Shown: piece by piece, positions 16,301-51,700 of the stretch
How positions within the stretch are numbered: position 1 is the first letter of the stretch
Layout of the letters: every line of letters starts with the position of its first letter
Assembly: GCF_021130785.1 (NCBI RefSeq)
Contig: NC_060213.1
Span: forward strand, 112,941,501 to 113,005,500
Length of the DNA: 64,000 nucleotides
Direction: 5' to 3'
Source of the DNA: Homalodisca vitripennis
Taxonomy: Eukaryota > Arthropoda > Insecta > Hemiptera > Cicadellidae
The notes under the pieces: model-generated
The model's input: only the letters and a program-made list of their open reading frames with translations
What the model was told of the DNA's origin: nothing
The model's database searches: none
Program-made: the position numbers and the translations under genes

Positions 16301-16612
16301 GATTTAACAGTAGAAATAGACAAAAGTTTGTTTCAACCTCAGTTCAACTTCAGTACTTTACTGAACTCCCAGCAAAGCTTAGGTTCTGCTCCATCACTGG
16401 TTGCTCTTAGGTTTATGTTCACCGTAATGTGTTGTGTCTACGATCTACGTGGCTCCAGCTTCTGGGACAGAGCTGTCAACACACGCTGATTGTCTATCGT
16501 GCGCAAGCAGCTGATATATGACCGCACTTCTGACTCGTTTTTCGGCGACGGAGGCTCCAATACTAGAACACACAGATTTATTTGGATAAATAAAATACAC
16601 ACAAGTACACTG
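10319..16612. other. Long non-coding stretch, probably downstream or last-intron sequence of Epac
   Basis: Very AT-rich. The segment at about 15650-16090 is GC-richer and looks like an old repeat, but no protein could be read from either strand. I searched here for the missing last Epac exon without success. Confidence 0.55.
13103..13126. repeat. (TACAA)n short microsatellite
   Basis: Four to five TACAA units within AT-rich non-coding DNA. Confidence 0.85.
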
Positions 16613-19186
16613 GAAATAATTAGTCTGGGCGCGCGGCCGGTCGGTGGTAGGCTATGGCGCGGGGGGAAGAGGGGTGTGTGAATCGGTCATTCCTGAAAAC
16701 ATCACGCCCGCGCCACGGTGGCGGACTTCAAGGTCGGGCCAGCCGGAAGGGCTTGGCTGACTTTGTGACTCATCTTTCCCTCCAGCAAACCTTCCCTCCA
16801 AACAATATAATACCAGTGTGACATCTGTTGTCATAGAGTGAGCATCGCTAAAACTTCAGTATTAACAGTGAGTTGTTCTAAGCTGTGTGTATTTACTGTG
16901 TGCAGTTAACTGTGAATAATTATTACGTTCAGTGTTTTTGTATTGTGTTATTTTGTTTTAGTAAGAAGCTTACTTCATAAGCAATATGTGTGACCGCGTG
17001 AAATCAAAACTGAAGGGTAGAGTTTTGCACAGTCAAAGTCGTGAAATTGTCAGTAATGTATATACATTCATGAAAAAGGAGGCTGATGAAAAAACTTTAA
17101 GTATTCCTTGGCAAAGGCCCGTGTCCCGAACAGCAGTAGCTACAGGCGTCCTCAGAACGTGAAATCTCAAGAATTAATAAAGAGCTTAAAAATTTTAACC
17201 GTTAATAATGAATGCAATGGTGAAAGTAGCTTTCTCACCCCAAACAAATTGAAAAGGAATCGTAAAAAAGCCTATTACAGGATTGGATGACTTTGACAAA
17301 GCTCTGATAAGGCGAGTTTGTGTACGAGTTCCATCTTCTAAAAAAACAAGCTACCAACTGTATCTTTGTTACATGAAGAATTGAAACAGCGGATCGACTT
17401 TAAAGGATCAAAATCAAGCCTCAACAACATTCTTAAAGAACTTGGTTTTCGGTGGAGAAGGACACAAAATAACCGCAAGCTTTTGATCGAGACTAATGAA
17501 ATAAGAGAAAAAAGAATTTCGTATTTAAGAGCACTCAAACGTTACAGAGATGAAGGACGTCCAATTATATACTTAGAACGAGTCTTATATACTGACAAGT
17601 CACGTGTCAAGTTCATCGTGGTCTGACGAATCAACTAAAGGAATGCGTGTTTCCATTTCGAAAGGGGAACGGTTGATCATGATACACGCAGGAAGTGAAG
17701 CTGGTTTTGTTCCCAATGCATTGACAATGTGGAAGGCATCGAGTCATTCGGGTGATTACCACGATAACGTGAATACGGAATCAATGATGAAATGGATGAG
17801 AGAAAAACTTCTGCCTAACATACCACCAAGATCAGTTATTGTTGTTGATAACGCCCCCTATCACAATGTACAAAAAGACAAAGCACCTACTTCAAAAAGT
17901 AAGAAACAATTGATGAAAGATTGGCTTTCTAAACATCAAATACCTTTTTCGGATGATTTGCTAGTCCCGGAGCTGTACAGGATTATTCTCCTAAATAAAC
18001 CGAGATTTGTTAGGTATGAGCTTGATGAACTAGTGACCAGCAGTGGAGGACATGTTGTGCTTCGGCTCCCACCATACCACCCGGACTTAAAACCCTATTG
18101 AACTCATTTGGGCTGAAGTGAAAAACTACGTAGCCAGTAGAAATATTCAGTGCAGTTTTTCAAGTATTAAGTCCTTTAGCGGAAGAAAAGTTTTCACTTA
18201 TAGGTGCAGAGGAATGGGCCAGAAAGTGCGAACACGTAAAAAAAAATTGAAAATGATTATGCTTCAGCTGAGCCCCAAATCGACAATCTCGTGGAATCAA
18301 TGATAATTTCACTCGGCAGCAGTGACAGTGAAAGCAGTGAAAACGCGCCAGATGACTTGAGCGGCATTGAAGACTTGGGTGATTTGAGCGGCATTGAAGA
18401 TTTGGATTGAAGCGTATGTATTAACTTTGTACATATTTTATTATTATTTATTAACATGTTTTAAAATTACTTCTGTCATTACACAAAACTGTGGAGAATG
18501 CTGAATACAACACTGTTCTGTTCTATTCTATTATGTAAGGATCTAGCTTTATATTTAAGCCATTTAAAGACAGTTTTTAAGATTTAAAATGTTAAAACTA
18601 AACTTTTATCCTTATTTTATCCTAGAAAAATATATTAGGTGAGGTTTATATGTAAGCCAAAATGTCATTGCTTTCACGCTAAAAGAACTGAAGACCGTAC
18701 TGAGACTGGGAGAAGCTCGCGCGCCGAGTGTTTATAAATATTAAGATAACGCTTAATTTCCCCCGGAATGAGGGGTCGTAGAAAAAAGTTTTTTTAGACA
18801 AAAAATGCAGTTTAATCGATTTTCTAAAACTTTTCCACGGGAAGTTTGATACTGACAGAATAATAAAAAAACTTCCTCGCAGAGCGAAAATTTCATGTCA
18901 TAAAATTAACCAAACTAAAAACTGTACTTGGTTTTTACTAATTTAGACATTATTATTTTAGAATTGACATTTTTTATACGTATTGGTTGGAAAGACAAGA
19001 ATGTGTTCTTTAATTTGATATAAATTTTATTACGATAAAGTAATGGCAAAATGCTCATTTCATGTATTAAATGGAATGAGTTTTGTGAAACGTTGCGCGC
19101 GTGACAGCGAAATAGAACCTCGACCGAGCCGAACCTTAGTTGAACGGCTAGTAGTGCCAGAGCCGCGAGCCCAGACTAATTATTTC
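16613..19186 (+). mobile_element. Tc1/mariner-superfamily transposon with long D-E spacing (decayed)
   Basis: The ends are inverted repeats of 25 bases with one mismatch: GAAATAATTAGTCTGGGC plus CGCGGC on the left (16613-16637), and the complement at 19162-19186. A TA next to GTCTGGGC on both sides may be the duplicated TA target. The interior holds a frameshifted transposase (16986-18410). The region just inside the left end (16621-16780) is much GC-richer than the surroundings. Total length is about 2.57 kb. Confidence 0.75.
16986..18410 (+). pseudogene. Frameshifted IS630/Tc1/mariner-type transposase
   Basis: Reading through frames gives a protein of about 470 residues. It begins MCDRVKSKLKGRVLHSQSRE (helix-turn-helix region). 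Next comes a GSKSSLNNILKELGFRWRR segment, typical of these transposases before the catalytic domain. SSWSDESTKGM, VIVVDNAPYHN and LPPYHPDLKP with IELIWAEVKNYVA mark the DDE domain. Frame changes lie near 17158, 17340, 17610 and 18098. The first catalytic Asp appears as Glu (IIYLER), so the copy is dead. The distance from the second Asp to the final Glu is about 83 residues, far longer than the 34 of mariner/Tc1. The C-terminus has an acidic duplicated DLSGIED motif. Confidence 0.85.
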
Positions 19187-21656: not shown

Positions 21657-21776
21657 CTAAATGTCTTGATCTGCAGTATCTGAGCGTCCTCATCGTCTGG
21701 GCCAACATGTGCATCTTCTCGAAGTTGATCAACCCATCGACCAAGGTCTTGTTGCCTTCATGGACAAACGTCATGT
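21657..21776 (-). CDS. Epac: Epac exon 15 (catalytic domain, end segment)
   Basis: Acceptor TTGTCAG|AC at 21777, donor TTTAG|GTATCT at 21656. It codes for residues 782-822: [40 protein letters not shown]. It ends in phase 1, so at least one more exon is needed for the conserved C-terminal end (about 45-60 residues in known Epacs). I found no exon for it to the left. If the intron is retained, the frame runs on for 16 codons to TAA at 21583, giving a short hydrophobic tail. Confidence 0.92.
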
Positions 21777-24700
21777 CTGACAACATAACAACACAATTGT
21801 TATTGATATAACACAAAGAGTTTGGACTATTTTCTTTAAAAATAATACAAAATGCAACTAAACTTTAATTAAATACTATAGGTCTACTAAACATTTAAAA
21901 AGAATCAATAGTTGTTTATCTCATTCACAGTTGGATAGCATTAGATAATGTCGACTCTTTCAAATATGTCTTCTATACTAGATTATTCAATTTCCAATAA
22001 TTACTTTCACAAGTAAATAGTTTTACGGAAGTATTGATTTAAGTATGAACCAAATACCCATGTTCATCTTGTGCCATATAAACTTCTTACCTTTGATAAG
22101 TAGTGGCATGAAAGGTATCACAGGACTCTGCAGTTTGCCGACGTAGCTTCGGTAGTTTCGATGGTTGCGTGAAGGGTCTATCAGACTCTCCAGTTCGGTG
22201 AATATCTTGCGGGACTTGGACGACAGTTTCTCCCAGGTGAGTGAGAGACGACTGACGGCAACATTGCTCAGGCCCATCACCACAGCAAAGAAGGCATTGA
22301 GATTCTGGTACTCCTTGCAGCTGAAAAAATTAAAATCATAAATAAAATGAATTTAAGAATAACTTTACTATACAGAGCAAAGAAAATAATTTGTTTAACA
22401 ATAAAAATAAATCATAAGATGCGGATGAATGAATTTGTATAGATTTTTTAGTTACAAACCTTACTTATCAACTCATGTTGAGAACGGCTTTCTACAATTA
22501 CAGAAAGCTTTCTTGGCTGTACCGCACAAAATTATTAAACTCGTTTAGAAAATTTGCAATGTATTGAAAAATTACGGCAAAGTATGAATTTAAGTCAAAC
22601 TGTAAATAACTAATAACATTTTAAAATCTTTCAACTGTAAAACAATGAAATTCACACAATTACAGAGAACTTACAATAATAAAAAGCAACAAAATTAATT
22701 CATTAAACTAAGGTTAATCTTTTTGAGCTACATTAAAATTGGACTGATTTCCACATGAGTTTCATGGAATGAAAGTAAAAACTATTCCAGACTCGCAAAT
22801 TGAAATTTTAAACACAGTTTTTTAACGATATATGAAGTTTGAAAGTTCTAAAACTATATTGGTTTATACATTTCTATACTAATTTATAGTTAAAAATGAT
22901 ACAATTGTATTTTTATAATAAATAATATATTTTCAAACTTTTTATTTTTAAAAGTATCTACATAATTTTTTTTTCTAATTGTTTGCCTTTAGAGTATTAA
23001 ATAACGATATTGTAAGTCTAAAGAAGACTCCACTATGGTCTGCTTATGTGGTACCAAGGGACACAACACAATACCTCACTAGTTGCAATACGATGTTAAC
23101 CATTAGGGTGTAAAATAGCAATATATTTGAAGAATTGTACACATAGTTCACTTCCAGCATACAAGATATTAAGTAATGTAGATTGTTTACTCTGTGTGAA
23201 ATAAAAGTAAAAGCACTGTAAATATTTGACAAATACAACAGCTATATCCTAGTAAATAAAAAGAAATGACAGTAGCTTAAATGGAATACAGAAACATAGT
23301 TATAAAACTGTAGCAAATCTTTTGAGTAGGAAAATTCAGAATACAAAAGTTTAACTAGTGATTTCATTAAGGGTAAAGACACCAATATTCTCAGATACAT
23401 GACCACTGAGGAACTGGGGGAGGAGATTTGGAGGAACTGGTGAGAACTCAGCGATCCTGAGCTTTGTTAAAGGCGAACCCAGAATTTCATTTTAGAGATT
23501 AAAACAGAATATATCTACATGATCACTGTTATTACAGAAGTGTACACCATACATTTTTATTATTACCAAGGCAAACTAATCGCTGGAAAACGTAACTGAC
23601 AATGCACATAAAAATATCGAATCCAACTCATTATTCTTCAATTTAGATGTTATTCAACATTTCTGAGGATTAATTTCCAATAGCTGTTTATGTTTATACT
23701 TCTGGGTTTTGTGATAGAAAACATGCTGCTGACCGCTTTGGCAATGGTACCATGATAATAAAGCTCACCCTTAACGTCCATACATTTGCTGGCTCCCCCC
23801 ACCATACTGTGAGTACTGGCCCCCCTCCTTAAAAGTTTTATTTCAAGTATCATGTCCTGATATTGCAAAATTGAATTTTTCAAATTAATTTTATCTGGAG
23901 ATCTGCCCAAATAACAGCCAAAAGTGTTATAAAATTTATAAAAACTATGTATGAGACCTTCTGCATCAGATTTTGCCTCCTTTGTCAAGTTACATTCCTG
24001 GGCTGAATTAAGTTGGGATAAGTTTGTGCAATAGGAACTAATGTGAAATACAAGCTAAATCCAATACCTTCTACTGAAAACAACTTTTTTGTGTCTTCGT
24101 GGTAACCTTCAAGTTTCCTGAAGTCTGAAAATTGTGTTTTGAAACAAATTGCTCAACATTGTTTTTCGATGTTCTTTGGTGAGCACAGATTCCAGCACTC
24201 AACTCATAACACAGTTGGAAGCAGTTATCAAATCTCTGATCACAATGATATCTATTTAAAAATCTACTTAACTTTTGGATTATGGTTTGTTACTTCTCCT
24301 CCAGTTATTTTAATTGTTTTATAAAAAAACTTTCTTATATTCTCCATTGATTTCCTTAGAATAGTACACATATCACAGAGCAAAGGATATTTTTTAAATG
24401 TAAAGATCTTGTCCTTGGACCAAAAACGTAGCCAGGAAAATATATTTTTTTTGGGGGGTCCAGACAACTGATATTTTCCTGTAGTGGACAGAGAGTATGG
24501 CCCCATTTTGTTCCTTAAAAAGGCCTGTTTCTTTGTTGAGAACAATCTTTCAGCAGTATATGTTAGTAATACTCAACTATTTAAATAATAATAATCGTTT
24601 ACTAAAAAAAGTAATTGAACAAATAAAAAATTTAGGGGAGGTCTGGACCCCTTGGAACCCCCCCGCCTTGGACCCTCTTGAATGCCAGGTTACATAATAA

Positions 24701-27700
24701 GCTGATTCGCCTCCTTTGAGTAGCCTTTCCTCCTATTACATTATCATTTACTTGTCTGTAAAACATAATTCTATGTTGAAGTTTTAAATAGGGGACAAAA
24801 ATTATAATTTTGTGTCGAATAATGGTGTTGGTATGTTGGTTATTTTTATATTTAGAATATATTGATGTCTTTGGCTTAGATTAAGGAACATGCTCATGAC
24901 ATAAAACTCACTAGCAGGCGAGTTTGATCATTTTCCGCAGAATCTGAACTCGTTTGCTGAGATTCGGGGTGAGCAGCAGTTCCGTGATAACCCAGTACTG
25001 AATCTCGTTAAACCGTCGCAGAAACACGTCCAGATTCGCTGTGATCTGACTGAACCGGAGACGACCAAATGTTTGGTACAACAACTCATACTGGAACAAA
25101 CAGGTTGGTACAAGTTGTAACAATAGTGGAGTTACATCATAGACATCATTTCAATATCTGAGTAAAACTATCCTTTAATATATGAAGAACCATAATGGTC
25201 ACACACCTCATGTACACTCCAGAACAGATCCCAATCGAAAAGGGTCATGTGGTAGGCCAGTTCCTTGGTGCTGAACAGCTCCATGTCAAAGTCCATCCCT
25301 TCCGTGGGATTCTCTTGCTCAGGGATCAGTGTCTGCAACATACGCTGGGAACTTCAGTCATGAACTATGTAAGATTCATCAGAAGCTCCCAGTAAGTACA
25401 TGGTCTACACAGCTGTGTTTCTTGACCAATCTGGAACCTATGCTGTGTGAAGTTTTAAATAGAAATTGACACCTCCAAAGGAGAATTTTCACTTATGTCA
25501 AGAAAATAACTATATTTTAAATACAGACAACACAAAAAACATCAAAAAAGTTATTTTATCTAACTTAATATTTTATGAGGGGCTGGAGAAAACTTTCACT
25601 ATCAAGGTGATCCAATGGCTATACCATCCTATTTTGCTTGAACCCAATAACTGCCATTGTTAGCTATCAATGAAGATATAAAATACTGTCCTATCTGTTT
25701 TCTACAAATCCAAAATTCTAGTTCACAAAACAATTATGAAGTTAAATTTGACTAAATAATAAGAGATATGGTTAAAATGGAATGAATAAATTAATGCAAC
25801 ATCCTTCTTTTGAATGAGTATTTGAACTCAACAAATCTCTCTTGACCAATGACTGGTCAGTGATATCAATGAGATCATTCTCTTTAGATATCTTGATTAC
25901 ATTTCAATGCAAATACCCAGATACAACCATACTTCTGCAAGTGTTTTAATCTTTACATTTTTCGTATCCTCAAGGATTACAATTCAAACCACCAACCAGA
26001 GCGTCCAGGTGATCCTTTGGACTGACAAAGAGGCGACCATTCAAGCTGAGCGCCGTGGGGATGGAGATCTCCGCATCCCTGAATGTCACCTTCTCCCCTG
26101 AACTCTTGAGCTCTACCAGCAGCAGATCCTCACGGGGATGCCTCAGGCCGAGCTTGTCGGCTGCTGACACCTTGATCTCATTGGCAGATGTGTTGATGGG
26201 AAACCGCAATGTGCAGAACGTATGGTCCGCACAGTACACCCGGAATATCACTGGACATTGTAGAAAAATATAATTAAGATTAGTCTGAAGTTGTTTTTAA
26301 TTTTTAAATCATTTGGTAGATTCAAAGTTCAGTCTTTTTCTAACACTAAAAATTTGATCTATATATTTTCAAAAATTTACTTAACATTTTATAACTTTAC
26401 TTAAAATTTTAGACCTTATTCATCTCCAATATTGTAGATCTTTAAACAAAATAAAATAATTTATAAAATAGTGTGGAGTGCATTTATAAATAAAATTTAA
26501 GTAACTTTTTTGGGTGACTAAGATTAAAAATTATGTATTACAAGACAATTTGACAATAACTGTCAGTAAAAATCAATAATGAAATAGTTTTACATTAACA
26601 TTTGTGTTTGACCTTTTGGTTTGATTTATTTAAGATACGCGCAGTACCAAAAAAATGTCAATTCCTTTAATGTTAAAGATGTAACAACATAACGTTGTAT
26701 TTAGGATTGCTGACTAAAGGTCTGTTGTAAACCTATTTAAATACTAAATTAATATTTTATTGCAAGAGCTAATAGTTGATCAACTGAAGTTTTGAAAGAA
26801 TTCACGTTGGCTAACCTATTGGCTATATATTCTAATGTACTCTTAACATGTGAAAGAAAAATTAATGAAAAATGGTCATTCAGTGTACCATCATCAGCTG
26901 GTCGTATGAGTGTCCTCGTTTTGCCGTCGGTGGGACCAGAGAAGAGGCTGATAGGTTGTCCGGCCGGGGGCAGCTTCCACTTCTGGCCTGCAGAGGCTTG
27001 TCGCTCCTCCTGGTAACGGCGCAATTGGGACATGACGTGATGCATCAGGCTGGCCTCCTCTTGCAGACCTACACAGTCTGCCTCCACCTCTCCCGCCAAC
27101 TCCTGCAACATCGGATCTTGCAGTGTTGAGGCAAGTCTTCCTTTTGGAAAGGTTTTGCCAAAACCACAAAATAATAAATAAGGTTGGTTTTTTTTTTTGA
27201 GACATTCAATTATGAGTATTCCTGTCGTGAGTTATTACTTCTCCTTCTTCTCAAGTTGCACACAGATTACAGGTCCAATTATAAGGACTGATTGGAACTA
27301 AGTCCTAATCATATTACTAGAATTTTGGATTAACCAAAATAATTATGGATAATTAAAACCAAATAATTTGTAGATGGAAAGTGTTAACCCTTTAACAGTA
27401 CTACTTAACATTATGTTATGCTGAATTATTTTGTTGTTTTTTTATAGAGACAGGTTTGAAGAGTTTACATATACCTATATAGCTTTTCATGCAATATGTT
27501 TAAGAAATTCAAATTTATATTATATTATAAGCAAGATAGTGAATTTTGCACAAAGGTTTTATATCTTTGAATAGGTTATATTGACGATTAATGTTCATAA
27601 TTGTGTTTAGTAGGCTGTGTAGGATTAATAATTTAAATTGATTAGATTTATATAGTAATGTAATAACAAAAACAATGTCTTTATTGTCAGTAAAATACAG

Positions 27701-30700
27701 TGCATAGTATACAAATCCATATTGAAAAATGATAATATGTAAAAGAGTTTTTACAAAAGAAAAATTCTTCATGACTTCTGAGTACCTAGTACTTGCCATG
27801 GAGAAACTGATATTTTCCCGTAGTGGACAGAAAGTAAGTAAATTGCAGTCAACCGCTCATTCCCCACTTTGTTCCTTAAAAAGTTCTTGATCCGTTTAAA
27901 TGTTGAGAATTATCTCTCAGCAGTACATATCAGTAACACTGAATTATTTAAATAATAATAATCGTTTACTACAAAAGTATTTGTCAAAAATTGAAAATTT
28001 GGGGGAGGGTCCGGATCTCTTGGACCCCTTGCTGGCTACGTTCTTGACTCTTCCATAAAAATCCAAACATTGGTCACTCGAAAAATGGAAACATTTAAAT
28101 GGGAGAGTAGTTGTAAAATACTATTATATTTACTTGTTACTGAGAATCTAAAAATTATACCTCTATAAAATTGAGGGAGGCTGCCTCCTCAAAGACAGCA
28201 TGTCTGATTGTCAGCACCCATCTGTAGACAAAGTGCACCACTCTCTTCTTGCAGATGAGGGGAAAGTCTTTGTCATGCCCAGAAGACTCTGTATGGTAAG
28301 TGTGCAGGTTCAGGAAAACACTGACTTGGTTTCATCTTAAAGTCCTATTTGTAAAAACAAATTGAACATTTTGTCCAATTTCTGTTTGAAAATTCTCTAT
28401 TTATATTTTGACATGGATTAAACAAATTTATGTAAAGGAATATGTTCAAAACAATTACTAATTAACTTGACTACATAATGTGATGCTAGAAAACCACAGG
28501 ACAAATCACTTTATTTGTATAAACCTCAAAAAGTTAACTGTTAACTTAACTTTATTTAACAAACAGTGGGCAATTGTTCAGTTCAGGTTTTATAATATAG
28601 TAAAGGTCTTTTTTCTAAAGTTAAATTACTCAATTTATTTGAATTTGCTAAACTATTGAATCTATTCAGTTATTGATTGTATGTTATTTAGAACACAATG
28701 GAAAATATGTAAGCAGCATTCACATGACCTGCATTACTATTGTATTTGCTCAGCAATGCATTCATTTTTAAGGGGAAAATCAGCTGATTTAGGAACAGCT
28801 GTTAAGTGTTTAACTTCTGTGTTAAAAATATTATAGAGAATATTAAAATTAGTTGTAACAATTGTAAAATGGTATTGTTAATAAAAATGCAATTTCTCCA
28901 TTATTTGTGAACTATCATACACATTAAGGTGTCAAACGAATTATCGCTTAACAAGCTATTTTTTATATTTCTTATAATTTTGTCATATCTACTTTGGTTT
29001 TCATGAAATTTAGCATCAAGATTTTTAAACGGCCTCAATTTTGAAATTAGTACATATATTTTATCATCTATATATCTTTTCCAAAGTGTTGGGTCAAAAA
29101 CATAAAAAGATTACAATCCTGTAGCTTAAGAAACTTGTGTGTTTTGTTTTTCTATGGAACAAACAGGCATACAGATCGAAAACGAAGCATCTGAGGACAT
29201 GTGTATAGAGAACTTTTTTTGCTTTAGTACGATTAATCATTTCCTTATAAATTTTTTTACATAATTATGAAACACTCTGTATATACAAAATCTACCATAA
29301 AAATTGCTAGAAACTTAAAATTTGTGTCTTTTGATATATAAACATTGGGAAATCTCCAAAAACCGGATATTTTTACTTTTAAACTCCTAAAAAAATTTCA
29401 AAATTTAGCACATTTTGACCCTTACAGACCTTTCTTTGAAGTCTGATTGTTAGACCTAGCACAGAAACAACTCCTTCCAAGAAAGAATCATATGCTCTCA
29501 ACATTTAACCCTCCGAGTACTTCCCGATAAGGCTATATTACCGTCTACTTTAAAAAAATCACAGTTGCTCATCAGTGTAGTCTTTTATAACAAGCTCTGT
29601 ACTAGGAAATAACTGTATAAAAATATGTCGTAGCTCAAATCTAATGGCAGAATCAAGAGTTTTAAATCTACAAAAAAGTGTAGTATCTTTTTGTTGTATC
29701 TCCAATATATAAGCCACAAAACACTCTCAAAGTGAAAATTATAGTTAAATTCAGAAAATTAAACAAACTACAGTCTACTTTTAACTCCCTGGAAAACCTC
29801 ATCTTAGAATTCCTCTTATTCCCGAATCTGACAAAATTCCCAATAGGGGCTTAGGAGCGTAGCCGAAGGCAAGTTGATATATTAAAATCAACTGTGAAAA
29901 TCTGAAAGGATGTGTAAGGTCGCAAAGTTCTCTGCAGAACAAGTAAATAAACACAATGTGTGGTTTATTTCTTCTCTAGCATACGTTTCACTTTATAATC
30001 CATTAAAAATCTGACTCTCTTAGATCAACAAACAGGCACAATATATAAAAGGGTAAAAAAAAAAAAAAAATACTTTAGTGGTAATCTTGGTTTTAGTAGC
30101 CTTACAAGTATAACCATATTTTAAATGTGTTTCCACATTACCATTAAGTTAATTGAATCGGCACATGCTAAAAGGGCTTGTCACAAAAATTGAAAATTAA
30201 GTTCTCTATGGAAACCAAGTATTTGAGGATAGCTTCACAATTCTGTGTTAAAAGGACCTCGTCACATGCATTATTAGTAGAGAAAATGGCTGATGGAATT
30301 TGTGTCATGTGCTAGAAGGTCCTCAGTCAGTGACTGAGGACCTTTTAGCACATGCCGTTGGCAACACTGTAAAACCTATTTATTTCAGCTGGTTATTTTA
30401 ATCTGATTATTCTAACCTGAAACTACAAAGTTAATTCTCTGCTGTACTCTATATTGTCTCTTCTTTAATAATATTGAGTTTTGTCAGTATAGAGTTAGTA
30501 GTTCATAAAAGAAAATCCAACTAGTTCTATAACCGCCTTAAAAAGAGGTGGAAAATAGGGATGTCCTAGCCATATCTTTTGATTTTATGCAAAATGTTCA
30601 ACTCCCCAATATACCCGTCCAAGAGACATTCTATCTTCGCCAGCTGTCAAACCAGTGTGTTTTGCATACATGACGTAAACAAGAATGATGCAGTAATCTA

Positions 30701-33700
30701 TCTGTATCATGAGGGTACTGCCAAGAAAGGCCCCAATGAGGTATGCTCGTTTGTATATGACTACTTACAGAAGGTCTCATCGCAGTACACAGAGCTTCAT
30801 TTGTATTCCGACAACTACGGGGGGCTAAATAAGAATAATTCTTTGGCAAGAGTGTTTTTTAGCCTTAACTGACACCAAGCGATTTGACAGAATTGAACAA
30901 TTCTTCCCAATCTGGGGACATTCATTCCTGAAGATGATTCATAAACTGTTTATGATCATAATGTTACTTAAAATATTACTTCTGTATATTCTTATATTCA
31001 TATAAAAGCAAACTGGCCTCATTTTAACTAATAAAATATTCTAAAAGTACGATTTTGAACTCAATTATTCATTGCAAACCCCGGTCCATGCTAAAAGGGC
31101 CTAAGTCTGACACTTTCAAGATTTTTTTTGTAAATACAAATAATTCATAAAAAATGTTTTCATATAACAAAAATAATAATCAATACCTATCCTACCTTGT
31201 GGTATTTTTTTATTAATTTTTGTTATTAATTCTATGTTCTAGAAACAGTTTTTTTTTTTTTTTTCTCAAAAGTAGATTGTTTTGACTGAGGCCCTTTTAG
31301 TATGTGCTGATTCAATTGTAAAAATATTGGTTCTCTTCCAAGATCATACAGATTTTCTTCTATGATCAGGGTCATTGAATGTAGGTATTAAGCAAAAAAA
31401 ATTTCCAAGCAGCTCTACAAGATTCAGAGTTATTTATATGGTGTAAGTTGGTATTTTACTACAAAACATTTACTTTTTATATAAAAGACTATAGTATTTG
31501 TGTCAAATTCTTAAACTAAAATTTCATTCAAAAAAGTAACAGGGAAGATCCAAAAATGAGTAAAGATGAAAACATTATTTTTATGCATATAAATAACTAA
31601 GGTTGATTGGAAATCTCATCTGAAGGCACTACCATGTTTAGAGTCCTAATTGAATATTTTAGTTTTAAATAACTTCTATAAAATTGTGCTAACAATATTG
31701 GTAGTTAAGTTGAAATGAAGGACTGTCTTCTCATGTACAAATTCTTCATGTATTGACATATAAGCAGTAAAGGATATTGCCTAGCCAGTTCGGTAACCAG
31801 TTGCCGGGTGGGCAGGAACACGATGTATGTGAGCAGGAAGTCGTCCAGAGCTGGGTCTTGGGACACACCAGGCGTCCCAACTCGGGTCTCCAACAAATAT
31901 TCCAACATCTTCTGTGGTGTCCCCGCCATCACCATGTACCTGCAACAGATTAACTATCTTAAGAAATCTTTAACATAAACTGTTAAAGTACTAATTTACA
32001 AGTATTTAATTTTTATTATATGAGCTGAACTTGTTACTTTTGTATGACACACAATATACTATTAAAAGTACTTGTGTTGAAGACTTGCTTATGCCTTGAC
32101 AGATTTCGTTGAAACTAGTACCGTTAGAATTACAATAAATTTCACCAAATAGTTGGTGTACAGTACATTTTTTATAATCATACTAGCTTTTTTGTTATTT
32201 GACTTTAAAATTTTCAACAGACGCCATTTTGTTAATAATAAAGAAAATAACACAATTATTTTGTTTATTTTCCTCTTACCTATTCAAACTTATGTGCCAA
32301 ATTTTGTTTCTTTAGCTTTACTAGTCTGCTTAGCGTCTAAACAAAAGGGAAATTGTTAAAAAGTTATTATTCATTTTTAGCTTAGAATCACACATGAAAT
32401 CCGAAAATGCATAGCCAGCCCAACCTTTTTGTAACACCCTGTAAATAACAATATAAATAACCTCTTAAAATAAACTTTTTTAACTTTTGTAAATAAATTT
32501 ATAAAGATTATTACAGAGCAAAATGTTATAGATGGGAATAGCATATGTTATAAGGAGATATTAGAATAGAAAGGGTTACATAAAAAAGTGTAAATTACAG
32601 AGTAGTGAGTGGAATTTTTATGCTAAAATACTAAGCGAGTGTTTGATTCATTAACACTTTGACTACCGAGTGGTGCAGTGTATATGTCAGCACAGACATC
32701 AAAGAGCGCTCCTGGTAGCAAACGTGTTATACAAACCTAGAGATGAAATCAACATTATTTAACTTTCATTTCAATGACTACTCACTTGAACTGCGAGTAC
32801 GATGACTGTATCCGCTCCAGCACTAACACGTCCTTACTGTGCTCCTTCAGCCGAACAGTGTTGGCCTCTACATCTCTCATGATCCTGTTGAAGTTCTCCT
32901 TGTCCACTCGCAGGAAGTGGCAGTTGTCCTCATGCAGGACTATACTCGCTGCTCTATAGACATAGAAAATATATCAGATACAGACTTGTCTCCCCATCTC
33001 TCTTGATCCTGTTGAAGTTCTCATTGACCACTTAAAGGAAATGACAAAAAACTGTAAAGGATTTGTAGGGAGCTTTTGAAATTCTGTTCCACTTAAAAAA
33101 TGTTGGATATAATTGCTTATGAGCCGGTGACACATCCATGATGGTCACAGATTTTGGAACAGTTTTTACCAAATTAAAACAACTACTTTTTACATCTTTC
33201 GAGTGAAATTTACTAATTAATAAATGCTGAAATTTTATTTCCACCAACCTTTTTACAGTTTCTTATAGAATCCAATAGCAGTCTTTGTTTTGTTGTTACA
33301 TTAAACTGCAAAGTTGTCAGTATTTCAAGCAGCGACAGATCTGCCAGAACTTTCTCTCCAATGAATTGAGACCATTTCAAAATCACCTAGGTCATTCTTG
33401 TATTTGGAAGAATAATAAGGGTGTAATTGGTTGCCAATATCATTTGGTGAGGGCAACTGGAAAGATCCCTCCTCTACTCAAAATAACTGTCTGAAAGAAT
33501 CATCTGCCTTCAAGAGGTTGGGTACTTTCTTGACAAATATTCTTCTCATTCAGAGAAAATCATGTCTGAAATTGAAGGCCTGTGTCTATGAAACACACAT
33601 CGTTGTTTGTCTAGTAAAAGGCAAAACATTTATCGTAGTATAATACATGTTTAACTAAAAATAAATTTAAAGCCATGCCTGTATGACCTTTCCTATCTGA

Positions 33701-36700: not shown

Positions 36701-39700
36701 ATGTTAATATTTATAATAAAGTATTATAAGTTTAATTACAAAGCCTAAGTCAGTATTATGCATGACAATATCTACGGTAATACTTATCAGATGGTGATGT
36801 CTTTGTACTTTTTACGCAATGTGAAAGTCTTTCTTTGTTCAAAAGAATTATTTGGTCAAATTTAACAATATAACCATTTCAAGGCTTTTCATTACACATG
36901 TACCAGAGGTTTTCTTGAATGTGTTAAAAAAATAAAATGTGTCTCGATATTGTGCAGTAGTTTTCTTTAGATGAAGCATACATTAATTGTATACTCTTTT
37001 TACTAATATAAGTTTCCTAATTTACAATAGATATTAATGAGTCTATAAATTTTAGTAAAAATAATTTCTTAAAATCTTTTTGGAATTTTGAAAGATAACT
37101 GAGAAATTGTTTTACTCCTCTCTTTTAAACAAAATTATGTCAAGCCTTCAAATTAATTAATTTTATATTTTTTCAGTGGTGAATTGATAAATTTTAATTT
37201 TTTTGGATTCATTTCATTGGTTTCTTTTACACTGACTTTAAATTGCATGGTTGTATCATTATTTATTGGAAATTAATCATTGTTATATTTTTATTAAAAT
37301 TTCATTTATTATTATTGTTCTCATTCTGTTTTGATATGTAGGTTAAACACTGAAAGCAAGTAGAATCAAACAAAAAATGATATAAAAAGGGTATATTATT
37401 TATTGAATTAAAAGTCATGTCATGTATTTTAATGGTTTAGTCAGAGTATATGATATTTATGTCTCACCTAGGGACATCGTTGATGAGAGCAAGTTTGCCG
37501 AAGTCTTCTCCTTCGTGTAGAGTGGTAACCGTGCCTTTACCGTGGATAACGACATCTACTGACCCTCGCAGTATAATGTACCACGACTTGCCTTCGTCAC
37601 CTTGCTGAAACACTGCACACACAAAATGAGACAGATATATTCCCAAATACGTACATAACTTCCATTGCATTCTACGTCAAAAAAATACTTATACGTATAA
37701 CACATATAGGAGTGTATCAATAATCTGTGCCATTACCTGTATCAGCTAAACAAATTGAAATATAACTTTTTTTAATTCTAACCCCACATTTTCAACTCCA
37801 AGGAACTCAGAGAAATTGATTCCAAGTCTGTTTTATGTCCAATTTATAAAACTTTGGGAGTAGTAGAGTTAGTTTTGGAAAATTAAAATTTGTAAATATA
37901 TGTTGTGTTCCACCTCATTTTAAAGGTCTTGGAACTCTCATTATTCTATAACAAAAATGTTTTAATTATGGCAGGTCTTAAAAATATAAACTAAAAATTA
38001 ATTATAAAGTAAGGCACTCATCTCATTTCCAAATTCAAAAATTTTTTTACATCCAAAGTCAACATTTTTAACTACAAACGTACACCTTATCCGACATAAA
38101 ATTCAAGATTTATAACAACATATTCTAATTTAAAGTTTTTGCAATATTTCTATTGGTTTCAAGATTGTATAAGCTGATTGGTAGTAATTGTTTCAAAGAG
38201 ATCCAGTGTTACTCCTCATCTTCATTTCAGAAATAAGAAAAATGTTTTACAACCCCTTATATATGGTTGTAAAAATTATGGTGGGTGTCCCATTTTAAAT
38301 ACATTATTAATACCTATCCAAACACCTTTTAGTTTTAAAAATTATTATTGGTTATTCATAAAACAATTGCATTTTATTACTTTATCGAACAAATATTTAC
38401 AGAGTATATTACGCTTTAACAGAAAAACTCAAGGTCATTTAGATGTTTATTGTCACATTTAAAAAGTCAACATCTTCAATAGTTCTACAATAAAAAAGTA
38501 ATGACACAGAAGTGTTGAAGGATTAAAATTGTTTTTATGAGAGGTTATTTCACTATAGCCGGCTCTTAAAATATAAAAGCGGAAAAGTAGTACATGTATG
38601 TCTGGAATGGTTTGAAGGATGTCAGGATAAACAGATTACAAATTTCAAGTATCTAGACTATGGATTTACCGGGACGTGTGTATACTTAGATAGACTTCAT
38701 AAACTTGATATTTAATAAAAGAGGATAGTTAGGAGAAAAATGACACCTTAAAATGAAAACAGATGGAATTTTATAAAATATTTTCCAGAAATCACACGTA
38801 CGGACAGTCCCTGCCTTGCAGTGTGCCTCAAACACGATCACTGCTGCCAACTCCCTCTTCATGGAGTGGCTGAGGTGAGCCAAGGGCTTCAGTTGCAGCA
38901 ACTCCTCGTAAATGGTCTCCAACTCCTCTGCAGTCCGATCATGACTCCTAAACCAACCAAAATTGTCAAGAGTTGTCTATCTATTACGTAAATTATGAAA
39001 ATGTATTACCTTATAATTTGCTAGTTTCAACTTATTATGCTTTTTTTCACTCACATTTAAGATATGGAACAACATTGTGGGGCAATAGTAGTGGTGTACA
39101 AAAAGCTTTAAATGGCAGAAAAAGGCATTGGGAGCCATTAAGAATTTACCTGAAAGAGAAACATGTGTACCAATTTTTAAGGAACTACAAATAATGACAT
39201 TTTTATTTTTGTATGTTTATTGTTGTTTAGTGAATGTTAAAGAGTCGTTATGTAATTTTTTAACTAGAAAGGAAATTCATAGTTATTTTACCAGAAAAAC
39301 CATAATTCTAGTTTTGCGTACTGTCAAACTTCAAAAAAGTAATGTATTTTATTTGTTGATAGTTTTTTAGCCTGTGATACTAGACTATAAATTTTTAACT
39401 ACATTAATATATTGTTTTTTATTTTATTTATTTCTGTTTGTGTATTAAGTGTATGTATGTGTTATTGTTATCATAGTTTTAGCATAGATTATTTATATAT
39501 ATTTATTTAATTATTATATTGTATAGACAATTTATATATTTATTTGATATATAAATAATCATTTAGGTACAACTTAATTGTTACCTGTTATCACCTTATA
39601 GATAACTACCGAGAATTTGACTCCTATCCTTTAGACAGAGATTTATATTTATATTAAGAAAATGACTTTGTCAGTTGCAGAATGTGTTTAAAAACAATAA

Positions 39701-42700
39701 AAATTCTTGATTCTTGTATATTCTTGATTATTAATTTTTGGAAATTAATATAATTATGATACTTGGTACAATTCTTAAAAAAGTTATTTTAATCATAGTA
39801 CTTCACAAATATCAGCTGTTATTGAATTATTTTGCTCCAAGAAATCATTATTTTGCATTTGCTTATAACACAGCATTTTTTTACATATAAACTTGACAGT
39901 ATAAGTATTTTTAGCTGTTATGTAATCAAAAATAAATAAAACGTATAAGTTTTAATTTTGTTGTCCATATTATAAAAGCCATTGTTCACCATACAGAATT
40001 GTAGTGTTTAGGCCTCTAATCGTATTTCTAAACTCGGCTTTGTCTTGTTAGTGAAACACCAAAAACAACTACTTTTGCTCCTAATGATGTAAACTACTAT
40101 TATTTTAAGTAGACTCTTAGACGTGTTACTAACTTTAAAGTAGAAACCCACCCCATATTTGTTCATTAAGTTTAGTTTTTAATAACAAAAATAATTTTTT
40201 TAACCAACTGTTTCATAACTTGTGTTTAAAAAATGGATTGTCTCATTTAATAGCATTATTTAAAAGACTTTAAGAACTGATTTTTTTTCTCACGGTTTTC
40301 AAAACTTAGTTTTTCTTTTACCAATGTCCTTGTCACACCAATTCCAAATTGTCTAATTTGGAGATCAGACTGTTTAAAGCAATTATCTCTGGACTTTTAT
40401 GAAGTGTTCTGCTGAAAAGATGAAGAATTAAAGCAGTTTTTATGATTTTATATTAGTGAGCAGGCCTTCAATTTTATGAATAAAATAACGAAGAAACATT
40501 CAGATGGCTTCATACATATAACTAATACCAGTATATTTTAAAACAGGAACTAAATCCACTGTATGTACCCAAACTAAGACAAGTGCCTTGTAGCTCTGGT
40601 ACTTTTGTTAACAGACTAAAGATTTTCTATGTATTATAAAATTTTAGGAGTAACTATACTTACGACTTGCGAAGAATCATGCGCAGCATGGCATCAGGAG
40701 CTCGACGTGTCAGCTCCTGTAAGGCCTCATCCAGGTGTTCTTCTGCCTCTGCAATATCCTGGGCGGATGGTATGGATGTGGATCCTTCCCGGTCCTGCCA
40801 GAACTGGTATAGCAAACACTTGTCCTTGAAGCCATGCTCTGCTGTAGCTGCATCCAACAACCAATTATGTCAGGTGTTGAAGATTAAATAAGCATGAAGA
40901 AAAACAAGGAGTCTGGAAGTGATTATGTGTTGCTTTAGAATTTATATTTTATGAGGGTATGTAAGCTACACAAATTTAGTTTGAAGATGTATGTGAATTA
41001 TTAAATTTCATAGTATGTGCTGGAGCCTTTTTATAATTTGACACATTTTCATGAATCATCTTAGCAGTAATTTCTTACACCTTTGAAAACATTCAAATTC
41101 CTAGATGAGGCTATGGATAATCCTAGAAGGTTTAGCTCTAGTATGATGAAAACCTATCAGAACTGATGAAGTTTGATCAGTTACAATGTTAGCAAATCAA
41201 ATGATTTGGGAATGTACAATAATTTTATAAAATTTTGATAAAACTTGTTATTTATTTTCGTCAAAAATTTAATTATATATTTTCATAGAGTTGTTTCTAA
41301 ACAGGTACACACTAATATGTAAAAGCACATGGATTTTGTAAGATTTACATGAACAAACAAATTCAGTAAGTAATGTTTCATTTTAATTTTTATCGACTGT
41401 TACTGTATGACATGCTATAAGTTGATTCTTACATCCGTTTTAACAAATGAGCCACAAACACAATCCTATGCTGGATAAAGAACCTCAATAAAAAGTTATT
41501 GCAAATGTGATGCATGACTCAAAAACATCTTGATAAGATAACTACATTGCTTCACGAATTTTTATACCCTTCCATTAAATTGGTTCCAGACATGGCAATA
41601 ATCATAATGGGTGGAACAGATGACAGATAATTTCAGAAGGGTATTAAAGTTTGTAGTTTCATCTTGAAACTCTAACAGACTGTAAGTTTTCATAACTATT
41701 GACAAAGTTTGTATTCTGAGTTTAAAATAGTTAAGTCTGACAAAACTTAAATGTTTGATTAAGAAAAGCAATTCCATGTCTAAATGTTGTAACTATTGTA
41801 GTAAAGAAGTTATATAATATTTTAAAATCTATTTCAAAAGGACTTTCAAGATAAGAAATTCTATCTTTAGGTTATAAACCAATAATTTTATCACATTGAC
41901 TTTGGCAGACATAACCAGCTATTACTCTGGCTTTAAGTTGGTGTATGTCTTGTGCTGCAGTGAAGGTGTTAACACTATATACTACAGTTGGAAAGTTATC
42001 ATAGTTTAATGCACTGACTGTGGCTGACGTATTACTCCAGTTGTACAAAATGTCGGGATTTAAGTCTCATGCCGCAATGAAGTTGTTAAATAATATGCAT
42101 GTAGATAACAAGTTAAAATACAACTATCAGCAAAATAATAATATATAATAAAAGTATATGTATTTGTAAAGATATGTTAAAGATACTTACAGAATATTGC
42201 AATTTTGATTCCTAGTCTTACATGTTTTACCACTGATAGCTACTATCTTTTATGGATTTTTGGGTTCACAACACAAACTGCTAACATGGTTCAAATCAAG
42301 ATATTTCAGCCTCACTGAGAATAACCATATTCACCAACAAAGTGAACCAAAACCAACCCTTAAAGACCCCATCGGTTTAAAATTTTTGACTGAAAATGAA
42401 TCCCCACAGTAAGGCTAAAGTATTCCAGATTTTAATTGTGTGAGCCTTTTTTTGACTTGGCGTGAACGGACAAACCTAGAATTTAGTCAGAGAATAATGA
42501 CTCCTTGATTATATTAGTGTAATCTATTATGTTTCATCATCTTCCAACACATGACCACATGAGATAGCATTTATCGGGGCACTTTATCCTCAATGATTCA
42601 TCATCCTTACAGCGGCATTAAAACATAAAAATTCTGAAATTCAATAATTTATCACTAGTTCCAATATGAGATTAAATTTATTGTTTGACTCAGAGTCTTT

Positions 42701-48700: not shown

Positions 48701-51700
48701 TTTGAAGAGCATAAGCTTAAATAATGGTGAAAACCAGAGACCACTATCTCTTTCCCATCGAAAATAACAGGTCGTCAGAATTTTAATGAAGTCTTAAAAC
48801 ACATTTTTAATGAAGACATTATTAACATTTACAAGACACCAGAAGAAAACGTTGAAGATTTAACAAGCAAGATTGTAGAGGCCTGCAATCAAATACCACT
48901 TCAGAATTTTTAAATCATGAGAGGGGAGTTCACCCTACGCTTGTCTCACTACCAAATAGTAGGAGGGCTTCAGTTTGAACATTTGATTTGACTTGGCAGG
49001 GGGGTGAGCGATTAAAAATATTGTTCTGGTAACAATAGCTGTTTCTTTGGATGGGAAAAAGATAGTGATCTCTGGTTTTCATCACTGCTAAAGTTTGTTG
49101 ATGCTCTTCAAATATCTCGCATTTTTGGGGGACACAAAACATTTTCAAAATCAATTCCTTTACACATTGCACCACTACCCAAAGGAAATCTCCATATATA
49201 AACTTTAGAAAAAATAGAGGGGGGTCCTGACTTTGTATTCATTCTGTATAATAAGGAGGATTATGAAGGGTCAGCGTGGGAGGCTGCGCGATTGCTTCAC
49301 AGCGGACATCCTGGGTCAGAGAGCGACCCTCAATGAACCGTTTTTTCACATTTTCATTTCAGATACAGTGATAGTAGAGGTGGAGTTTCAAACCAAATTA
49401 CAACCACCTAACTTAACTCATTAGAATGTTGTGTAGTCGGAAACACAAAAATTTCATACAGAGAATACTAGAGTAAACGCTTATCCAATAAACTTCGAAT
49501 AAAGCTTACACAATATATGAATACGATTTAAGCTACAACCCTAGATTTTAAAATTAATAAATTTAGTGTACATACACTAACCTAAAATGGATAAAGAGAT
49601 TGGAATATCTTTCAATGACTACCACTTATTTCAGGATTGTTTGGAATGCCACTTTAAAATAAATATGCCCATGGTGTCCTTGTTTTTTTAAATTAAATTT
49701 GCCTACGTAGCAACGGGCCAGTTTCATACTAAAAATAATCCCACTGTAAAATTGACTATCGTATAAAAAACTAAACACGTTGGCCTGATTAGAATACTAT
49801 TAAGTAAAGGAAATTCATGTTTTAGTGATTACAAGCTGTAAATTTTGGGCTCTAATATAACTCAATTTTAATTTGGTAGACATCATGAAGATTTAACTTA
49901 AATAGTTGAATCCTACTTTGAGTTGGATACGAAAAAGTATTTTCTTTCTAAATTTGTTTTGAGTTTTTTTTTTATATACATTGTTAGTTTTGCGAGGACA
50001 AATTCAAGAGATTTTGAAAAGCGATTTACTGAACGACAACCAACCACCAACCTCTGGCACTTACCGTGAAAGACGACTCCCTCTTCCAGCAAGGCTTGCC
50101 ACATCCCAGTGGCCAACTGCCTGGAGCATACTTGAGGGTCAAGAGCCATGAGCCAGTCGACCAGCTCACTCCCGCTGGCACACCGACGGACCAGCAGGCG
50201 GCCCCCGGCACTCTTGCGGTCTCTCAGCGTGCCTCCCGCATCATTCAGCAGCAGCGTACGTAGTACCCAACCGGCCCGTGCCATGGGCACACTGGGTGTC
50301 TGTAACAGTAACATTCACAGTTTGGCTAGTGCAGAAAAACGAAAGGTTAGGTTAGGTTAGCTTAGTTTCGGTTAGGTAGGTTGGGTTAGGTTAGCTTAGT
50401 ATCGGTTAGGTAGGTTAGGTTAGGTTAGCCTAGTTACGTTAGGTTAGGTTAGGTAGCCTAAGGTAGGTAAGGTTAGGTAGCCTAGTTAGGTTAGGTTAGG
50501 TAGCCTAGTTAGGTTACGTTAGATTAGGTTAGCCTAGTTGGGTTGGGTTAGGTTAGTTTAGCTTAGGTAGGTTAAGTTAGGTTAGCCTAGTTGGGTTGGG
50601 TTAGGTTAGTTTAGCTTACTTAGGTTAAGTTAGGTTAGTTTAGGTAGGTTAAGTTAGTTTAGGTTAGCCTAGGTAAGTTAGGTAGCCTAGGTAGATTATG
50701 TTAGTTATTTGTACAATACTTATTGCAGGATGACGGCTACGTCACATTACGTACTGTCCTATTTATAGTGTACCTTGCACCAAATCAAATGGATGTGGCT
50801 TCAAGATAACGATACGCCACGTCACAAAGTCGGAAGTGTGCTCTAGATGTTATTAAAACCTTATAGAACGTGATGTAACGTTGTGGTGTAGCTACCACTT
50901 CCGTAGCGGAAGTTATTGTAGTAGTGCAATCGTGCATGTTCGGTACATTCTGGATGATTTTTTTAAACTAGTTAATAAAATGTTTTTCATCTGCATTTTA
51001 TAAAAAAAATCTGTTGAAATAGAACAAAATACTATAGAATACTAAATAAAATAATGTAGTAAACTAAAATTTAATTCATATTGCCCACTATAAATTCAAA
51101 GTATGCCACTGCTGTCAGTTCTGTACAAGTTGTATTACGTGGTTGGTTTGGATCAATGCAAATTCTAGTATCTAAGTGCTTTGTAATTTATCTGTGTAAT
51201 TAGAGACAGAGAGGTATAATTAAGGAAGAGCATGAAGCATTTTTTGTCATATTGCCATGTTGTTATCAATATCAAAATCAGTCATAAATTAAAACTGCAA
51301 TATTGCACCTGTATATTTAAAAGAGTTTGATTTAGCCGGATTTTATAAATTGTAGTTTAAACTGACAGAATATTTCAAAAAATGTATGGATATAATGTGC
51401 AGAAAAGCCCTTGTATTGCTGTAAGAATGTATAAAGTAGTTCATTGTAATCTTATATTTCGCATTCCTAAAAATCAATTTTTGAGAACCTCTGATAATAA
51501 TTATTTTTAAATTAACATTTTTAAAATAGGAAGGTACTTAAGGAGAATTTGTATATTTTAAACTTCACACGAAGTGTCTTTCTCAAAGTTTAACGCGGGT
51601 TGATACACACAAAAACAATAAAACTATTGATATAACATACAATACAATCATACATAACATACAATCTCTCATGGTTCACATCTTCTCACACTTTCACTCT

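Follow-up and report, generated by a model that had tools for sequence, protein, structure and literature searches.

The window analyzed here is a 64,000-nucleotide (nt) stretch of DNA from Homalodisca vitripennis (Cicadellidae; contig NC_060213.1, positions 112,941,501 to 113,005,500 of the forward strand). All coordinates below are counted from its first letter. The minus strand contains a gene for Epac (RAPGEF3/4), and the REM (RasGEF_N) domain of this gene is interrupted by an intron that begins with AT and ends with AC. An earlier note, made from the letters of the window, had called it a U12-type AT-AC intron, to be removed by the minor spliceosome. Judging from the DNA and from protein comparison, we are highly confident that it is a true U12-type AT-AC intron.

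We assembled the gene with four homologues as guides. The model has 14 exons, from 50314 to 16438, and an open frame of 813 amino acids (aa). Its 13 introns comprise 12 of the GT-AG kind and a single AT-AC intron, number 6. Among the homologues, P0121 is the best match; it is the H. vitripennis protein that NCBI names "rap guanine nucleotide exchange factor 4 isoform X2". Of its 811 residues aligned with the model, 808 are identical, and the AT-AC join is already present in it. Its precomputed domains (PF00610, PF00027, PF00618 and PF00617) include the DEP, cyclic-nucleotide-binding and RasGEF families. The three mismatches all fall where exon 1 of the model begins; there the two agree only from TPSVPM onward, and the model probably runs into intron sequence.

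Intron 6 (28300-31777, minus strand) is 3,478 nt long and in phase 2, and its coordinates and sequence are exactly those given in the earlier note. It reads ATATCCTTT...TTTTCCTGAACCTGCACAC from 31777 to 28300; in longer form its 5' start is ATATCCTTTACTG. Gene model and domain match together place the first half of the REM domain in exon 6 (31778-31939) and the second half in exon 7 (28161-28299). These were exons 8 and 9 in the earlier note, and our count begins at the DEP exon. Exon 6 ends with codons ...GAA CTG GCT AGG CA, with GGCTAGGCA last, at 31778, and exon 7 opens with TTACCATACAG at 28299, so that the expected spliced junction is CTGGCTAGGCA-TTACCATACAG. The phase 2 join reads LARHYHTESS, restoring HYH in frame as had been predicted. 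The joined exons match Pfam RasGEF_N (3.5e-10) and Epac2 structures (6e-13), and by both matches the REM domain is intact across the junction.

Splice signals and alternative joins

We found that the signals at both ends of the intron match the U12 class. The conserved U12 5' splice site, [AG]TATCCTTT, is present: ATATCCTTT, at 31777-31769, agrees with the U12 AT-AC consensus at 9 of 9 positions. A TTCCTTAAC-like branch site is present as TTTTCCTGAAC (28308-28318), with one mismatch in 11 (10/11 against TTTTCCTTAAC) and with A 28310 or A 28309 as the candidate branch nucleotide. The intron ends in TTTTCCTGAAC-CTGCACAC (28318-28300), and its terminal AC, the 3' splice site, occupies 28300-28301. 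The other 12 introns, all GT-AG, have 2-6 mismatches at donor positions 2-9 and 3-6 mismatches in the branch site. These signals bear out the U12-type AT-AC intron that the earlier note had placed within the Epac REM domain.

The non-chance character of the motifs comes from where they sit, at exon ends. As a free motif, ATATCCTTT occurs 3 times in the window (1.53 expected), and the branch motif TTTTCCTTRAC with at most one mismatch occurs 6 times (5.83 expected). Both are at chance level, and motif counts alone were therefore dropped as evidence for a U12 intron. However, the donor and the branch match fall at exactly the exon ends set by homology. At a fixed position the donor has a rate of 2.3e-5, and the branch followed by AC or AG at the right spacing a rate of 5.5e-5, for a joint rate of approximately 1e-9. 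A second perfect ATATCCTTT (24390-24382, minus strand) is located within intron 11, away from any exon end, and was taken as a chance occurrence and not as a donor.

The distance from the branch A to the first exon base is 11 nt for A 28310 and 10 nt for A 28309. An optimum of 11-13 nt between branch and 3' splice site, with either A able to serve, is described in PMC3584512; the spacing here fits this optimum only if the first A is used.

AT-AC ends alone are no proof of the minor pathway, as illustrated by the case of SCN4A intron 21 cited in PMC2831892, and the Epac intron might in principle be spliced by the major (U2) spliceosome. We regard this as extremely unlikely, given that the donor and the branch match the U12 consensus, described as the class-defining feature in PMC3584512, and that the fly and human introns are classed as U12 in PMC2831892.

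Of 81,900 donor/acceptor pairs tested, only 31777/28300 yields the required protein stretch, that is, the join of the NCBI protein. As a second comparison, 252 alternative joins near the site that stay in frame without a stop were scored against a homologue profile. At most 104 rows of the best 120 full-length homologues went into this profile; both leafhopper proteins and the 14 homologues with abnormal gene models described below were left out. The AT-AC join scored 151.0 bits and outscored the GT-AG, GC-AG and AT-AG joins near the site, the next best being an AT-AG join (142.7 bits), followed by the best GC-AG (138.3 bits) and the best GT-AG join (136.8 bits). Two nearby acceptors, AC at 28302 and TTAC at 28296, shift the frame and lead to an early stop.

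These scores bear on the possibility that a nearby U2-type GT-AG intron is the real one and that the AT-AC match arose by chance. The searched region does contain 58 stop-free, in-frame GT-AG pairs. The earlier note had held that a GT-AG pair giving an intact REM domain would count against its reading, but near the site none is as good as the AT-AC join: the best is 14 bits lower and puts foreign residues into the domain. As no pair other than 31777/28300 among the 81,900 tested gives the NCBI protein, we find a GT-AG intron here hardly credible.

The junction in proteins of other animals

Conservation of the intron was read from relatives' proteins, in which read-through or broken gene models leave peptide signatures. 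We surveyed the junction in the best 120 full-length homologues and searched all 233 fetched proteins for motifs. The junction is ordinary in 106 of the 120. Its first residue in these rows is H (56), Y (33), N (6), T (5), L (4), F (1) or K (1), and its second residue is Y or F in 105 of 106. By inspection, the remaining 14 models are abnormal at the junction (P0004, P0006, P0007, P0127, P0128, P0132, P0137, P0138, P0175, P0183, P0193, P0208, P0211 and P0217). Judging by the names, two of these follow NCBI style (Folsomia and Scylla, the latter marked LOW QUALITY), whereas 12 were named by submitters or UniProt.

Donor traces were found in insects, springtails and vertebrate RAPGEF4. The peptide QYPF or QYPL, the translation of CA|[AG]TA[TC]CCN followed by TT or CT and thus what a read-through U12 donor would give, is present in 11 of the 233 proteins, every time at this junction. 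The carriers are Timema, Laodelphax, Ephemera, Folsomia, Orchesella, an "lgn" entry (P0055) and five vertebrate RAPGEF4 models (Callorhinchus, Bubo, Salarias, Lates and Accipiter). Acceptor traces were found in insects and a crab. T before Y or F is the translation of AC|T, as left by an AC acceptor; an AG acceptor would yield S. Seven of the 14 abnormal models, all from arthropods, have this T (Zootermopsis, Diploptera, Periplaneta, Carabus, Glossina, Scylla and Gryllus), and the Zootermopsis model bears both signs (QYP-TYR). T alone is no proof of an AC acceptor, because five of the 106 ordinary rows, all from Aedes-group mosquitoes (P0002 and P0186-P0189), also carry it, perhaps as a true substitution. 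Three shorter submitter models (Diaphorina P0009, Cyamophila P0010 and Timema P0012) start just past the junction, as if the gene had been split at this intron. All eight "lgn" entries among the best 120 have an intact junction. Their open frames are long and their contigs measure 2.9-4.8 kb, so that they are probably complementary DNA (cDNA).

Both springtails with the donor peptide (Folsomia P0208 and Orchesella P0211) read QYPFHTK at the junction; Allacma (P0214) does not. In these two models the insert may be real rather than an error: the old U12 donor may have become coding while a downstream GT took over, a conversion from minor to major class.

An AT-AC U12 intron in Epac is already known. 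PMC2831892 (Table 2) lists intron 11 of 16 of Drosophila Epac (CG3427) as AT-AC and as U12 in both the fly and human RAPGEF3, and PMC2952598 (Table 1) includes Epac among 19 fly U12 genes. These two papers are the literature that we found tying Epac to a U12 intron; a literature search pairing Homalodisca vitripennis with the minor spliceosome gave no match. The earlier note had suggested comparison with RAPGEF3, RAPGEF4 and other insect Epacs. With traces at the same junction in insects and vertebrate RAPGEF4, and with the RAPGEF3 intron published, the peptide signatures and the fly and human orthologues together give indirect support to a position kept as U12 in relatives. The intron was most likely inherited from before the arthropod/vertebrate split, as far as these signatures and sequences indicate.

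Several points weigh against our interpretation. In the intron itself, the branch site has a G for T before the A's, the branch spacing of 10-11 nt is at or just below the published optimum, and the last 20 nt, with 12 pyrimidines, are as pyrimidine-rich as those of the other 12 (U2) introns (9-14), so that this measure does not discriminate, although U12-type introns are expected to lack a polypyrimidine tract. Among the relatives, QYPF/L cannot tell an AT donor from a GT donor, and "lgn" entry P0055 reads through the junction. That fly intron 11 and the human intron share this position is judged mainly from Glossina P0183 and the vertebrate read-throughs and not from coordinates. For H. vitripennis, genomic DNA and protein comparison are the whole basis for the splicing described.

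The P0055 entry reads QYPF...KFTFH. This fits an intron of 87 nt, open throughout, that was retained in frame.

Some models raise the possibility that, alongside the U12 join, a U2-type bypass joins a GT within exon 6 (after ...LTYI) to exon 8 (26889-27102), giving an Epac that lacks the REM domain. The site, ATC|GTGTTC, and the start of exon 8 share phase 0, so this join would be in frame. Furthermore, in Nezara (P0013) and Blattella (P0039) the database model departs from exon 6 nearby (at LLTH and LLTHI) and continues with exon 8 sequence. Both models, however, are submitter gene predictions that may merely dodge the AT-AC intron, the Nezara model also ends short, within exon 8, and the donor GTGTTC looks weak. 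We consider such a bypass unlikely.

The earlier note had also claimed that automatic annotators usually miss introns of this kind and would break the REM domain. This was borne out in part. Fourteen of the best 120 homologues are abnormal and eight of these lack the Pfam RasGEF_N hit, but 106 are normal, including the NCBI protein. From the sequences compared, the warning fits a number of submitter models and not the NCBI model of H. vitripennis. A missing Pfam hit does not by itself point to a break at this junction, because P0131 (Bemisia) lacks the hit although its junction is intact. Broken models are probably under-represented among the best 120 homologues, which are no fair sample of all annotations.

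An automatic rule for breaks gave 13 of 120 at this junction, including P0214 (Allacma, HC for HY), which we did not count, and missing P0127 and P0007. At the other junctions it gave 0-9, except for 33 at exon 5/6, 25 of them with one side wholly gapped. We set aside the count of breaks by gaps and insertions around junctions, as a length insert follows HYH naturally in Diptera and exon 5 is missing in 24 entries.

For users of databases, these results are a warning that Epac REM domains break at one predictable place. They also mean that mis-annotated proteins can serve as traces of AT-AC splice sites without a genome, QYPF/L marking a read-through donor and T before Y or F an AC acceptor.

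The remaining exons and other features of the window

The other exons of the model, all on the minus strand, are exon 1 (50065-50314; DEP region, with a tentative 5' end), exons 2 (40664-40847) and 3 (38802-38947), exon 4 (37468-37612; cyclic-nucleotide-binding region), exon 5 (32786-32953; 168 nt, in frame), exons 9 (25997-26250), 10 (25207-25332) and 11 (24912-25090), exon 12 (22091-22320; catalytic GEF region), exon 13 (21657-21776) and exon 14 with the stop codon (16438-16562). Exons upstream of DEP were left out of the model. A trace of one, at approximately 55706, is also found in the NCBI protein.

Exon 5, which encodes the end of the cyclic-nucleotide-binding domain, is missing in 24 of the 120 homologue entries, all of them Diptera by name. 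This suggests that exon 5 is a conserved cassette, the skipping of which would probably impair sensing of cyclic AMP (cAMP).

Inside the AT-AC intron, the plus strand has a 100-aa stop-to-stop frame (30570-30872) that has no Pfam hit and looks transposon-derived. Transposase-like frames (17342-18101, plus strand), with HTH_33 and DDE_3 matches below the Pfam cut-offs, lie inside intron 13. A scan of the window with Rfam at gathering scores found no RNA family and thus no recognizable minor small nuclear RNA gene there.

Probable minor splicing of Epac and its known counterparts

If the intron is of the U12 class, the U11 and U12 small nuclear ribonucleoproteins should recognize ATATCCTTT and TTTTCCTGAAC, and splicing by the minor spliceosome should link CA to T, remaking the His codon of LARHYH. 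In RNA that retains the intron, translation would run on past residue 351 for 24 codons before reaching a stop. Unspliced RNA therefore cannot make the rest of the REM domain, the RA domain or the catalytic GEF domain, and so the intron could in principle limit the supply of Epac.

The earlier note had suggested that Epac output might depend on minor spliceosome activity. A coupling of Epac supply to minor-spliceosome capacity is possible but unproven, and we rate it as improbable, because no clear loss is seen in the fly data and plain conservation is common among U12 introns. In flies mutant for U6atac, as reported in PMC2952598, 2 of 18 Epac probes were up in the third instar and none of the 18 was down in any instar. 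According to its authors, the array cannot separate unspliced from spliced RNA. In their reverse transcription PCR, which sampled genes from every class, unspliced U12 introns increased while much of the spliced product persisted; for most up-regulated or neutral genes, functional mRNA was close to the wild-type level or somewhat lower. The array data are thus compatible with a mild loss of functional Epac mRNA in these mutants.

The same coupling might explain why, from a time before arthropods and vertebrates diverged, the intron has persisted in both Epac1 (human, published) and Epac2 (from the read-through signatures). PMC7757817 reports that LSM12 raises EPAC1 post-transcriptionally in human cells, via the 5' untranslated region, and LSM12 is on the fly/human list of U12-intron genes in PMC2831892. 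If the coupling were real, the LSM12-EPAC1 axis could take a double hit when the minor spliceosome fails. We find this explanation doubtful. A regulatory role, if true, would matter for cAMP signalling under impaired minor splicing.

Compared to U12-type AT-AC introns in general, the H. vitripennis intron shares the 9/9 donor, a near-consensus branch site, a short spacing from branch to acceptor, and phase 2; the one mismatch in the branch site is the sole departure that we saw. The prospero U2/U12 twintron of Drosophila (PMC2831892, Table 2) is likewise an AT-AC U12 intron in an insect gene. Unlike at that twintron, no GT-AG pair near the Epac site gives a REM domain as good as the AT-AC join does.

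The closest counterpart is Drosophila Epac (CG3427/CG34392), with the same gene family, the same AT-AC U12 subtype and a U12 orthologue in human RAPGEF3. The numbering differs, the intron being 6 of 13 in our partial model, where it is 3,478 nt long, and 11 of 16 in the Drosophila table. The break in the Glossina model (P0183) falls precisely at this junction and bears the AC|T signature, and the fly intron is therefore most likely at the same position. We infer that the fly, human and H. vitripennis introns are one and the same, and that the minor spliceosome removes this intron. The Epac intron offers a clear case of a minor-class intron of great age.

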